A stretch of 64,000 nucleotides of DNA, taken from contig NC_134031.1 of assembly GCF_964204645.1 (NCBI RefSeq), forward strand, positions 18,039,307 to 18,103,306, written 5' to 3'. Origin of the DNA: Tubulanus polymorphus. Its lineage: Eukaryota > Nemertea > Palaeonemertea > Tubulaniformes > Tubulanidae. The notes beneath the pieces were generated by a model. It was not told the origin of the DNA. It searched no databases and saw nothing but the letters and a program-made list of their open reading frames with translations. The position numbers were made by a program, and so were the translations under genes. Shown here piece by piece: positions 17,394 to 60,634 of the stretch. Position 1 is the stretch's first letter. Every line of letters starts with the position of its first letter.

Positions 17394-18306
17394 TATTCCA
17401 GTCACCTATTGATAAATTGAAGAAAAATATTTCAGCTGCGTTGTTGTGTAGGGAATGTTGTTGTACCGTAATTATATGGATGGAACGGAGATTGACGAGT
17501 TCATTGTTGTTCACGGGGCCTGACCTGGCGCAAATAGTACTTAGGATGATAGGGGATCAAGAACTTTCACAGTACCATGTCGGCTGTTGTGGTGTGGATA
17601 TTATGTTATCTGGTTATTGACGACGATTATTGTTGGATGTTTAAATTTGTGAACGATTAGTGACATTGATTGACTGATGTTGAGGTGGTCGTTGAAGAAG
17701 GAAAAAAGTGGAGCCAGTCATTGTTCAGCAGAACCTGTAAATCGAAGTAAAAATAATTGAGTGTGCATTTGCAAATGAACGTACCCTTTTGGCGCTGTCT
17801 TTTGCTATTTTTTCGATTGATGTCTGTCTGCAGAGTTTCCAGAACCTGTCATGTCAGGTCTTAAGACCTGACATGACAGGTCTGACCTGTCATGTCAGGT
17901 CCCGAAAAAACCCAAACTCATGACAATATTTGACGAAACGGCGAAATATCTAGGCATGTGCTAGACGAATGGAAGAACATTTTGAGTTGAATGAATATTC
18001 TGACCCGTCGTTAATATCGAAAATGATTCAACAATAACGATAAGGAAAATGTTCTGACAAATAATTCATTTGAAAGGTTGATTTATAAGAAGAAAATATT
18101 TATGTGTAAACTATGACTTATTTCTGTATTAAAGGGAAAAAATAAGTTTCAGGCATAGATGAATTGATTAATGTAGAAGTAAGAGCACATTATAAGAGAA
18201 TATTTTCGCTAGATGAATCGAGGTCTTGATATTTCGTTTCCGCAATAAGACACTGAAAATTATCTGCTCACTATCACAGCTCGGCAACACTCCTCACTGT
18301 CCTGAA

Positions 18307-18452
18307 GTCCTGGGCCCAGTTCCATAGTCATGGCTTAGACTTAAGACCAATCTAAGACCATCTTAGTACTATAACCAATCTAACAACTTAAGACCAGTCT
18401 TAAAATTTGAGACCATTTTTTGACTTAAATCTCAACTGAGGAACCAGCCCCT
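18307..18452. repeat. Dispersed repeat, CTTAGACTTAAGACC family, nested in the 2.5-kb element
   Basis: It begins CCCAGTTCCATAGTCATGGC and runs through the family words to GAGGAACCAGCCCC. Its presence inside the 17822-20329 element shows either nested insertion or shared origin. Confidence 0.7.
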
Positions 18453-18589
18453 GAAGTCTCACTATATACATTCATTGTCTTTATGATGTACATGTAAAAG
18501 AGCCGAATGCACTATAGAGACTGATTTTATTGAGACTGATTTTAAATCAACTCATCAATTTAAAGCATGAAGTTTTTTTTCTATCTATA

Positions 18590-19715
18590 TCAGTTTTAAT
18601 GCAGACCTGTCGCCATTATATAATACTCTTTACTATAAAGAGACCATAGAAATTAATGTTTTCCTTCATTTCATCAGTTTTAATGCAGACCTGTCACCAC
18701 AGGTCTCGAAAAGCTCTGCAAAATGGCGCGAGCTGCCGTGTGAGGTCTCGCTTCATAATTATTGTTTTATAGTAACTTAAGATTAATTCTATCCATGGTT
18801 AGCAATTCATATAATACTCTTTACTATAAAGAGACCATAAAAAGTAAAGTTTTCCTTCATTTCATCAGTTTTAATGCAGACCTGTCACCACAGGTCTCGA
18901 GAAGCTCTGCAAAATGGCGCGAGCTGCCGTGTGAGGTCTCGCTTCATAATTATTGTTTTATGGTAACTTAAGATTAACTCTATCTATGGTTAGCAATTTA
19001 TATTATACTTATTACTATATAAAGGTTATAAAAAGTAAAGTTTTTTCCATTTCATCAGTTTTAGTGCAGACCTGTCACCACAGGTCCCGAGAAGCTCTGC
19101 AAAATGGCGCGAGCTGCCGTGTGAGGTCTCGCTTCATAATTATTGTTTTATAGTAACTTAAGATTAATTCTATCCATGGTTAGCAATTTATATTATACTC
19201 TTTACTATAAAGAGACCATAAAAAGTAAAGTTTTCCTTCATTTCATCAGTTTTAATGCAGACCTGTCACCACAGGTCTCGAGAAGCTCTGCAAAATGGCG
19301 CGAGCTGCCGTGTGAGGTCTCGCTTCATAATTATTGTTTTATAGTAACTTAAGATTAACTCTATCTATGGTTAGCAATTGATATTATACTCATTACTATA
19401 AAGATACCATAAAAATTAAAGTTTTCCTTCATTTCATCAGTTTAAATGCAGACCTGTCACCACAGGTCTCGAGAAGCTCTGCAAAATGGCGCGAGCTGCC
19501 GTGTGAGGTCTCGCTTCAAAATTATTGTTTTATAGTATTTCAAGATTTAATCTATCTATGGTAAGCATACAATTTTACATTCACCATTAGATAGAGATCA
19601 TAAAAAGTTCAGGTTTTTCTATTTCATCAGTTTTCAAGCAGACCTGTCACCACAGGTCCCGAAGCTCTGCAAAATGGAGCGAGCTGCCGTGTGAGGTCTC
19701 ACTAATTAATCACAG
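18590..19715 (+). repeat. Tandem array of 190-191-bp units (six full copies plus one truncated)
   Basis: The anchor CAGACCTGTCACCACAGGTC recurs at 18686, 18877, 19067, 19258, 19449 and 19639, spacing 190 or 191 bp, with a truncated unit at about 18602. Each unit contains GACCTGTCACCACAGGTC, a near-palindrome related to the element's terminal hairpins, and AAAATGGCGCGAGCTGCCG. The central copies are more than 95% alike; the outer ones have diverged. The short frames starting at 18762, 18953 and 19143 are just the same unit read repeatedly. Confidence 0.95.
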
Positions 19716-20911
19716 TTTTGTCTAATTTATCCTATGTCAACTTATGAGCTTGGACTGAAATGTTTTTAAATTATATGTGCACTTGGTGAATTAATTATAT
19801 TGCGAGTAATTAATAAAAATATGTAAATATATAGGGCCTAATCATAATGAGTATACTGATTGTTATTAATACTGATTATGAGTACATAAGGCACTACCGG
19901 TACTGGTATCATTGCCTGATCTTGATATTTTCATGTTTCATGTTACAAAAAAATTAATAAATTGTAAACAATTCTTTCAATGTTCTCAAATCATTCACCA
20001 TCATTGCATCTTTATTATATACAAGGCGATATAGTTCAACAACTTTTTATAAACGGACCAACATAAATTCTTAAATGAATTCATAACACATCATAGTTTG
20101 TTTTTTGTTTTTGAATAATATATTCAGAAAGCACTAAGATATGTTCTTTTTGTTTCTTATCGGCTATCATTTGTTCTAAATCCGCGCCTATCATATCTTC
20201 TAATCGACTATCATCGGTTCAGTCATAACGATTTTCATTTTAGCGAATCGACCTGTCACCTGAGGTCCCACCTGTCATGTCAGGTCTTGGGCCCTGACAT
20301 GACAGGTTCTGGAAACTCTGCAGACAGACCTAAATGATTTTTTCACCACTTCTCAGTTGTTTTTCAGGTCGTTTACGAACTCGACCAGATGGTGGCAGCA
20401 CTTTCCGTCGAAGAAGGTTTTAAATACACACAGGGACGCGAGTAATAAACGCTCCGGGGGTAGCTCCGAAAACAATCAAGCACGCGGGCGCCGATTATTT
20501 TTCCTGTCAAATAAAGTTCAAGTATCAGAGATTTTAATAGTTTGCAACCTATCGACTTCATATTTTGATTCGTCAATTTTCAATTGCTAAAATGTACTTT
20601 TGATCCTTACTAATCGTCTGTTAACGTTACATAAATGTATATATTTTCTTTGTCTTCTTTCTTCTTATGTTTCAATCTATTTTCATGTCATTTGTCAATG
20701 TCTATCTCCGACTCGAGTTCAATCTGTTTCGTCTAGTAGAAACTTATTACATGTTAATTCATTATTGAGTCAAATAAGTTCAAGTTCATCAATAAATTTC
20801 AATTGAATTCAGACAACCCGGAAGTGGATGAAATTGTTACAGTACGTTTGCAGGGTACTTATTGCTTTCGGTCTAATTATCGGTGCTGCTTTCGTCTAGA
20901 ATTTCCAGATC

Positions 20912-35582: not shown

Positions 35583-35770
35583 TTAAGTTTTCTGGACCAA
35601 AGTTCCACAGTTGTTGGTCCGTGAACCCCTGGTTCCACAGTCGTAGTTTTCTGGACTCAGGTTCCACATTTATTGTTCCGTGAACCCAAAGTTCCGAAGA
35701 TACTGTTCTGTAAACCCCAGTTCCACAGTTGTGGGTCTCTGGGTCTGAGTTCCACAGTTGAATGTGGGTT
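35583..35770 (+). repeat. Irregular GGTTCCACAGTT repeat
   Basis: The word GTTCCACAGT (or close variants) recurs six times at 30-45 bp spacing, interleaved with TTTTCTGGAC and CCGTGAACCC. It is a loose, older relative of the array at 51655 in opposite orientation. Confidence 0.6.
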
Positions 35771-51163: not shown

Positions 51164-52624
51164 TCACCGCATTACGAAAGTTGTGGTTAACGCTATCAGC
51201 AGGATAGATAAACCAGTAATTGTCCGGTGTCCGCTGTTGCAGTAATTCCATCTGTTGCAGCAATGTTGAGTCAGTTGCATCAAACCAAACGACATCTTGA
51301 TATCGGGTTCGCATTTGAACGAGCATTTGTGATAAGAAATAGGGCGACCATCTCTCGTAGTACCGACAGCTTTCTGTAAAATAATAATACAACAACAAAA
51401 ACTATAGAACTTTAAAAAAGAAAGAAATTTAAACAATGGACATGAACAGATGGCACAAACTGAGGATCCAGTTTTGCAGTTTGCAGGTTCATGGTTCAAT
51501 CTGACAACGTGAACGTCGCCTAACTCGGGACAAACTGGAATCGGCAAAATTGATTCGAGTTGAAGATAGGAAACTACGTCAGGAAACGAGAAAATGATTT
51601 ATTTTTCGTCCAGGTTTCACAAAAGACCTAGTTATGCATGGTACTGCAGAGGAACGAACTGTGGAACTGGGTCCAGAACTGTGAATCTCAGTGCTGAACT
51701 GTGGAACTGGGTCCTGAACTGTGAAACTCAGTGCTGAACTGTGGAACTGGGTCCTGAACTGTGAAACTCAGTGCTGAACTGTGGATCTGGGTCCTGAACT
51801 ATGGAACTCAGTGCTGAACTGTGGATCTGGGTCCTGAACTGTGAAACTCAGTGCTGAACTGTGGATCTGGGTCCTGAACTATGGAACTCAGTGCTGAACT
51901 GTGGATCTGGGTTCTGAACTGTGGAACTCAGTGCTGAACTGTGGATCTGGGTCCTGAACTGTGGAACTCAGTGCTGAACTGTGGATCTGGGTCCTGAACT
52001 GTGAAACTCAGTGCTGAACTGTGGATCTGGGTCCTGAACTATGGAACTCAGTGCTGAACTGTGGATCTGGGTACAGAACTGTGGAACTCAGTGCTGAACT
52101 TTGGTACTGGGTCCAGAACTGTGGAACCGTGGAACAAGATCTTACCAGACAATATCTGCCATAATCACATTCGCCCTCTCTCTGTCCCGGTTGTTGTGTT
52201 GCGTAACATTTTTTCTTCCACCAGTTGAATCCTCCCTTACACGTCATATCGTAACATCTTAAACCAGACACATCTTAAACCAGACACATCATAATCATAG
52301 ATTCATAGATTATATAATCAGGGTAGAAATTTAATACACAGAAATTCAATGATTTTATAAATCAAGAAATTTGCGAGGAGCGAAAATCATAATAAGAATC
52401 CTTGAATATTTGACACTGGGGATTATTTGGTAATCAATCAATTGTTCGGAAAGAAAGTAGAAATGTAGTTAGTGTAAGTAAACAAATACATGGTTAGCAG
52501 TCACTGACAGCGCGGTTCCGTATCTATTGATATTATGAAGAAAATACATTACGATCCTACCTGCGACAAACGTCAACGCAAACAAACAGCCAAACAATCC
52601 GTAAATTGAAACTTTTCCGATCAT
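51164..52624 (-). CDS. Ly6/uPAR-type GPI-anchored three-finger protein
   Basis: Three exons on the minus strand, 52561-52624, 52146-52273 and 51164-51373, encode 133 residues. Exon 1 is a signal peptide (MIGKVSIYGLFGCLFALTFVA). The mature part starts VSGLRCYDMTC and has ten cysteines in the Ly6 arrangement: LRC, TC, KKC, GEC, YC, HKC, FKC, HCC and the diagnostic final YCN. A hydrophobic tail (TITGLSILLIALTTTFVM) with a preceding NSG is a good GPI-attachment signal, so the protein should sit on the outer cell surface. The LRCY start and CC...CN end are hallmarks of the three-finger fold. The one-exon-per-segment structure with a phase-1 intron after the signal peptide is typical of the family. 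The specific partner is unknown. The exon 2 acceptor is weak and lies in a 16-bp direct duplication. Intron 2 holds the 20/40-bp tandem array. Confidence 0.88.
51655..52135 (+). repeat. Tandem array of a 20-bp word organised as 40-bp dimers (about 12 dimers)
   Basis: Two alternating 20-mers, GAACTGTGGAACTGGGTCCT and GAACTGTGAAACTCAGTGCT (with variants), repeat in strict 40-bp register for about 480 bp. It fills most of intron 2 of the Ly6-type gene and begins 11 bases from the exon 2 donor. The minus-strand frame running into it is intron read-through. Confidence 0.96.
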
Positions 52625-59330: not shown

Positions 59331-59752
59331 GTTCTAGCTACTGATAAAACACAGCCTAATAATTCCCCCATAGGGCCTTTCCCTACGATTTAGTAAAACT
59401 ATTGATACAAGTCAAAGACTTTCTTACCACCACCAACTAGCCGCTAGTATATAAACAATGATTGTTGAAGGAATGCGCGTCTAAAAATCCACCACATTCA
59501 CAGAACAGCGTCATAATCGTGCACAGATTTGGGGCCAAATAAACACAACACATGATACGCTACGTTACAAAAATCTTTTTTTTAATCCAACGACCTTCCT
59601 AAGTTTTTTCTCTGTGCGCCGTGTGTTATAATTTGTTAACGTAAAGAGCAAATCCTGGATGAAAAAAAAACATGAACTGATATCTCTGACCTTAAGCATC
59701 AGATCAAAGATTCTATCAACGAACTAGCACCCTTTACTCCCCATCCCCATCA

Positions 59753-60033
59753 AGATAATACCAGTCTATAAAACTGGCCCTTGGGCTCAGCTGTACAGAT
59801 TTGACTCGTGTCCAAAATTGATATAGACTGGTATGAAACTTAACCCGGGTGTTAACTCAGTGCCCAGGTTAAAGATAATACCAGTCTTTAAAACTGGCCC
59901 TTGGGCTCAGCTGTACAGATTTGACTCGTGTCCAAAATTGATATAGACTGGTAAGAAACTTAACCCGGGTGTTAACTCAGTGCCCGGGTTAAAGATAGTA
60001 CCAGTCTATAAAACCGGCCCATGGGCTCAGCTT
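59753..60033 (+). repeat. Tandem repeat of a 120-bp unit, 2.3 copies
   Basis: The unit starting AGATAATACCAGTCTATAAA repeats with an exact 120-bp period (59753, 59873, 59993); the first two copies are nearly identical and the third is partial. The words AGATAATACCAGTCTATAA also occur once at about 23850. Confidence 0.9.
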
Positions 60034-60634
60034 GTACAGTCGTGACAAACCTCAGAAATATCCGACCCCATATGAGCTCAGTTGATGAGTTTTGATTTTG
60101 AGTATGTTACCTGTATCCTACCGGTGGCAGCGATGGCTGGAGTGAGAGTGAGGCAGTGGGCCTCGGCGATCAGCTCAGTCCGAGTTAGATCGAATTACAC
60201 TTTGAACCAATCTCAGATAAAACAAGTTCATAAATCGAAAATTATTTTTTGATTCCGACGACAACTTCTTGAACTTCGTACTTTATAATAATTTCCTTGT
60301 CGTGATTTCAAAACAAAAACCTGTCTGACCGAAGTCCACGATTATATATTTTGAATATTCCAGGAATGATCAATAAACTCGGCCGCCATTCAAGTCGATC
60401 AATCAGTTTCTAAATTATATCCTTTGTGTTTGTTATCGAATCTAGTAGACCGAGTTCTAGGTGAAAATCTGTTGACGCTTAGTTTCAAAACGAGAAACTG
60501 TTTCTAATTGTATCGCGATTGCATTTTTAAACAAGAACTGTGTGAATCGATTTATCCGCAAATTCAACCTAAATTCCTCACCCAGTCCTGGAAGTGGTTA
60601 TATCCACAGTGATCTCCGTCGCTCTACGGTCCTA

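Follow-up and report, generated by a model that had tools for sequence, protein, structure and literature searches.

A probable terminal-inverted-repeat transposon family with a satellite core of unstable length in the nemertean Tubulanus polymorphus

Introduction

Tetris, a foldback transposon of Drosophila virilis, is known from only three structurally complete copies according to the sections of its description drawn on here (PMC4079207). In the excerpted literature, rolling-circle elements insert without target-site duplication, and duplication lengths are given as 7-8 bp for P elements, 8 bp for hAT, 8 bp for Zisupton, and 8-10 bp for foldback elements, which are thought to belong to Mutator. 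The target motifs of Drosophila transposons are stated, in the relevant part of one study, to be always palindromes (PMC3276498).

The window analysed here is a whole stretch of 64,000 nucleotides from Tubulanus polymorphus (contig NC_134031.1, positions 18,039,307 to 18,103,306, forward strand), and it contains one copy of what is very probably a family of non-autonomous terminal-inverted-repeat DNA transposons with a length-unstable satellite core. The family provides a test case for the spread of satellite DNA, since one element has been caught carrying from 1 to 31 units, and among these are siblings with little difference beyond the number of units.

Structure of the element

The complete, non-autonomous element covers 2522 bp on the forward strand (17815..20336), with bounds set by termini common to many copies. 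An earlier note correctly recognised an element here but placed it at 17822..20329, and the true ends lie 7 bp farther out on each side. Immediately outside these true ends lie the two copies of an exact duplication of 8 bp, ATTTTTTC (17807..17814 on the left and 20337..20344 on the right, 8/8 matching), which contradicts the statement in that note that no target duplication is present. The window copy begins with GATTGATGTCTG on the left and CATTTAGGTCTG on the right (reverse complement), both of which recur in many copies; read farther inward, the left terminus is GATTGATGTCTGTCTGCAG and the right terminus, reversed, is CATTTAGGTCTGTCTGCAG.

The left terminal inverted repeat (17815..17901, forward strand) and the right terminal inverted repeat (20250..20336, reverse strand, recurring genome-wide) contain arms of 86 nt that are 86% complementary (17816-17901 versus 20250-20335), so that the inverted ends had been seen correctly but are longer than the roughly 60 bp first estimated. 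Each end is itself palindromic, as had been described: inverted-repeat scanning and folding identified a perfect 38-bp palindrome at the left (17844..17881) and a hairpin with 15-bp arms and an 8-nt loop at the right (20270..20307). Folded as single-stranded DNA, the left end (91 nt) had a z-score of -6.28 and the right end (92 nt) a z-score of -5.00, with 0/200 shuffles as good in either case, while a 91-nt stretch from the satellite unit did not stand out from its shuffles (z -1.43; 20/200). In agreement with the earlier reading that there is no coding frame, a stop-to-stop scan of the window found no open reading frame of at least 120 aa overlapping the element. Nothing in the window reached Rfam gathering scores, and no exact copy of the element end was found in viral contigs.

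Between the ends lies a satellite array on the forward strand (18616..19700) with six unit anchors and a period of 190-191 bp, matching the six tandem units reported before; the tandem-repeat scan gave a period of 191 and 5.7 copies. Alignment to the copy at C9:15623161 revealed an extra partial unit of 88 bp in the window copy (18585..18672, forward strand; a direct repeat with a spacing of 84), and also a 141-bp segment (18309..18449) that is missing from C9:15623161 and, on this one alignment, looks like a nested insertion. Three further copies, C7:8328202, C3:10074834, and C3:13295704, have left regions that are likewise long (858 bp in the last) and match that of the window copy at 99.4-99.9% identity; from these lengths and identities they probably share the 141-bp segment.

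Elsewhere in the window, a minisatellite of 40-bp units (11.8 copies) occupies 51656-52127, and its word CTGTGGAACT, partly as AGTTCCACAG, also occurs in short arrays near 35600, 38542, and 46003. A tandem 120-bp unit (2.4 copies, 95%) lies at 59752-60039.

A dispersed family with target-site duplications

The genome searched comprises 267.8 Mb in 77 contigs. Allowing for 3 mismatches at most, the end pattern had 111 matches, compared with 0 for the reversed-pattern control; 100 of the 111 places were listed, and 38 pairs were formed by adjacency among those listed. Exact 8-bp target-site duplications (TSDs) flank 32 of the 37 pairs for which both flanks were read, and one more pair matches at 7/8. 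The four pairs without a clean duplication are C1:24873277, C5:2934797 (included in the 18 fully read copies discussed below), C4:18580281/18598004, where the two ends are taken to belong to separate insertions, and C3:4032473, whose flanks match if one base was lost. The remaining pair, C3:12916899, consists of two right ends with one flank unread and stands outside the 37.

Inverted termini common to dispersed copies and a duplication of fixed length (8 bp) are two of the marks of a terminal-inverted-repeat DNA transposon, and both are found in this family. This bears out one of the two options that had been left open, a separate inverted-repeat family, and the genome search that had been suggested, for the same ends with varying unit number, recovered just that: 111 end matches (100 listed) and 1 to 31 anchors among 18 copies. 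Among 40 copies scored out of 114 candidates, 31 have a right end that is 100% identical over a 78-bp query, which suggests recent activity of the family. Copies beginning with GAATGATG are more diverged than the others.

Change in unit number among copies

The 18 fully read copies contain 13, 8, 3, 9, 9, 11, 19, 1, 31, 7, 2, 13, 5, 7, 6, 7, 9, and 10 anchors; because the anchor search tolerated no more than 6 substitutions, diverged units may be missed. One further copy, on C11, was fully read and has 1 anchor, but was left out of the 18 because of a foreign repeat inside it.

Sibling copies reveal how the arrays differ. The window copy, C7:8328202, and C3:10074834 have 6, 5, and 19 units, respectively, although identity among them is 99.8-99.9% in the left region and 99.1-99.7% in the right; relative to the window copy, the first edge segment has 4 and 0 differences in C7:8328202 and C3:10074834 and the last has 1 and 3. 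C7:13298178 and C9:15623161 have 7 and 9 units with 99.9% identity on the left and 99.8% on the right. Unit-by-unit comparison in three groups showed whole-block duplication of inner units, most plainly in C3:20081924, where a block of units is repeated in the same order. Edge segments have 0-4 differences in two of the three groups; in the group of C4:24274965, C3:5424656, and C3:20081924, only the last segment is conserved (1-2 differences), the first having 32 and 40.

Of 152 monomers cut out, the 142 with lengths of 180-200 bp were compared. Mean identity was 93.1% within copies and 92.1% between copies, and 78/142 monomers had their best match within their own copy, so most of each array seems to be passed on with its element, local duplication playing a modest part.

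A module common to satellite units and element ends

The earlier observation that the unit core echoes the terminal hairpins is well founded. When as many as 3 mismatches are allowed, the motif ACCTGWCATGWCAGGT has 12 matches in the window, all within the element, against 0.46 expected, and CTCTGCAAAA and GTCACCACAG are among the most strongly conserved parts of the unit. When the ends were aligned to the unit, the reversed left end matched over 34 columns, comprising the palindrome followed by CTCTGCA (score 31; maximum 24 in 500 shuffles). The palindrome alone was aligned for the right end (score 30; shuffle maximum 23) and for the forward left end (score 29; shuffle maximum 24), and the reversed right end was at chance level (score 22; shuffle maximum 26).

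The GACCTGT..ACAGGTC plus CTCTGCA module in units and ends may be a transposase-binding module, and its presence in the satellite unit would then be a copy of the putative binding module of the end. It is possible that the satellite derived from the element ends, as the earlier note proposed; the likeness of unit and end on which that proposal drew is real (score 31 versus a maximum of 24), and either direction of descent fits it.

The 8-bp duplications point to cut-and-paste movement by an outside transposase. A putative transposase supplied from elsewhere would bind the palindromic ends, excise the element, and join it across an 8-bp stagger. The whole-block changes between siblings suggest that the array may grow and shrink by unequal exchange, or by template slippage during repair of the excision break.

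A one-sided target motif

The sequence GGAA[AG]T begins exactly 10 bases outside the element in 15/66 flanks, the next best offset having 2, and in an enlarged flank set it is at a fixed place in 18/44 distinct sites. The longer word ACCCGGAAGT, matched at no fewer than 8 of 10 positions, occurs in one fixed register and on one side at 17/44 sites, compared with 2/2460 at control offsets; because the motif was derived from these very sites, the offset control is the fair test. Exact ACCCGGAAGT is present at 7/44 sites versus 0.00024 expected from its 1469 genome copies. At the 17 sites, the TSD starts between GG and AA of the word, which is left intact on one side after insertion, and variants include ACCCGG|AAGT, ACCAGG|AAGT, ACAAGG|AAGT, ATCAGG|AAGT, ATGCGG|AAGT, and ACCCGG|AAAT. 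The motif points toward the left end at 7/17 sites and toward the right end at 10/17. The other 27/44 sites, including that of the window copy, lack the motif at 8/10.

Empty sites were inferred from the duplications of inserted copies by joining their flanks. Among these joined sites, 14/33 have the motif; it is confined to one side, and the opposite half agrees with it at 0-3 of 6 positions. Dyad symmetry in the remaining 19/33 was not above the null (palindromicity 0.281 versus 0.312). A palindromic target motif is not supported by these two results, within this small sample. The same 19 sites lean toward G at -2 (0.45) and A at +2 (0.58) with both strands pooled, a possible weak two-sided preference.

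The target word ACCCGGAAGT resembles what we take to be an ETS-factor site, and its range of variants presumably fits that of ETS sites. The transposase, or a partner, may directly read the ACCCGGAAGT-like word. On a tentative reading, which we hold at somewhat below even chances, the transposase has a one-sided target like that of a transcription factor: it would cut ETS-type promoter sites at GG|AA, leave the site intact on one side, and so place satellite arrays in regulatory sites of the host. Satellite seeding would be linked to gene control if ETS-bound promoters are what the motif marks. No description of ETS targeting by any transposon was found in the portions of the literature searched, a scope mostly outside subscription journals. 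A one-sided target motif, if true, would be an exception to the palindrome rule as stated for Drosophila in the available part of that source (PMC3276498).

Alternative readings

A Helentron-associated "pearl"-type element moving by rolling-circle transposition, the affiliation mentioned in the earlier note, would share the general layout of a short satellite array in a modular element, as partial accounts of oyster Helentrons and pearl/DTC84 describe it. That reading fails, and is now extremely improbable, because the 8-bp TSDs in 32/37 pairs are not expected of elements that insert without duplication, and because long terminal inverted repeats are present. It is rather unlikely, though by a much smaller degree, that the satellite is an older independent repeat captured by the transposon and not grown from its ends. 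Such a capture would suit the short span of the likeness between unit and end, which covers only about 34 of 191 positions, and the two copies with old-type GAATGATG ends (C11 and C5:2934797), whose 1 and 2 anchors indicate that arrays may have been short at first. Against it, in a comparison by eye of the unit matches listed from a total of 472 (40 of 72 candidates scored) with 100 of the 111 ends, the arrays at C6:10.389-10.390 Mb were the only ones with no listed end within or beside them. The one-sided target motif, in turn, might be a by-product of insertions being kept mainly at open promoters where ACCCGGAAGT is common, and the word does occur about 8 times more often in the genome than its reversed control (1469 versus 188), a frequency that a regulatory word might have. 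This is improbable, since the motif is held to a single base register relative to the cut and chromatin preference alone gives no register; moreover, GC content and CpG ratio are not raised in the flanks of motif sites (0.38 and 1.11, versus 0.412 and 1.26 at other sites).

Membership in the P, hAT, Mutator, or KDZ superfamily is compatible with a non-autonomous terminal-inverted-repeat family and is judged moderately probable. The 8-bp TSD agrees with the lengths given in the excerpts for hAT (8), P (7-8), Zisupton, and Mutator/foldback (8-10), while the palindromic target of P-type elements was not seen in the joined sites. A KDZ transposase was rejected as the driver, as none of its 20 genome matches lies between paired ends in a comparison by eye with 100 of the 111 ends. 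A gene at C4:18582980, which we take to be hAT-like from its sequence motifs, lies between two young ends 17.7 kb apart, but the flanks of those ends are unlike (2/8), and no other match to its first open reading frame comes within 15 kb of a listed end, the nearest being about 16 kb away (107 matches; 120 of 181 candidates scored; by eye). The link to hAT through this gene was dropped for these two reasons. Pfam and PDB gave nothing relevant for the gene, so the hAT label rests on these sequence motifs.

Long copies and candidate drivers

The hAT-like gene (C4:18582998-18584699) was read in part; the stretch covers portions of three exons separated by GT-AG introns and contains no stop codon, and its first open reading frame is 100% identical at C5:13141466. 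Also on C4 (L094 862-2999) are LTR-retroelement open reading frames for gag (below cut-off), a zinc knuckle, and an aspartyl protease.

The 11.4-kb copy on C11 was considered as an autonomous form and rejected: its TSD is exact, but 20 open reading frame pieces gave only weak Pfam hits below curated cut-offs, and two interior stretches, when searched, proved to be part of an abundant repeat (40 scored of 198 candidates for one and 40 of 716 for the other). The repeat covers C11:11171400-11175640, and its scored placements are mostly 84-99% identical; many of those shown seem to be near contig ends. The same satellite-to-repeat junction occurs in three old copies, C11 (read whole), C55, and C2:22500456 (about 1.5 kb read of each of the latter two), and a composite of satellite and abundant repeat may therefore have moved as a unit.

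No transposase for the family emerged from the KDZ search, the hAT-like gene, or the C11 copy. The 12.2-kb copy at C3:6635794-6647983, with an exact duplication AAGTAAAT at an ACCCGG|AAGT site, is the best lead to the driver.

Comparison with known systems

Several described elements share features with this family, and the comparisons below are drawn from parts of the published accounts. Dada, a DNA transposon, targets particular sequences strongly, and CTGCG is common to four of five zebrafish sites; it differs in having 6-7 bp duplications and small RNA gene targets, and the sections drawn on mention no satellite array (PMC3706591). The pearl/DTC84 tandem-repeat MITEs and the oyster Helentrons likewise carry a short satellite-like array in a dispersed element (PMC5139131, PMC8268682), and DTC84 has a palindrome near the repeat junction. 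The oyster elements, compared by description only, are assigned to Helitrons/Helentrons, whereas 8-bp duplications and long inverted ends are found here.

Tetris resembles the family in being non-autonomous, with inverted ends, internal tandem repeats of about 220 bp in variable number, 8-10 bp duplications, and an autonomous partner that was not found (PMC4079207). Its repeats are inside both long inverted arms, in contrast with the one central array between short ends in T. polymorphus, and the likeness is by description only, with no target motif mentioned in the part of that account drawn on (PMC4079207). Galileo, of the P superfamily, has 7-8 bp duplications, inverted ends of labile structure, one copy with tandem repeats, and a clear target motif; that motif is a 15-bp palindrome (PMC4168063), whereas the motif of the T. 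polymorphus family is one-sided.
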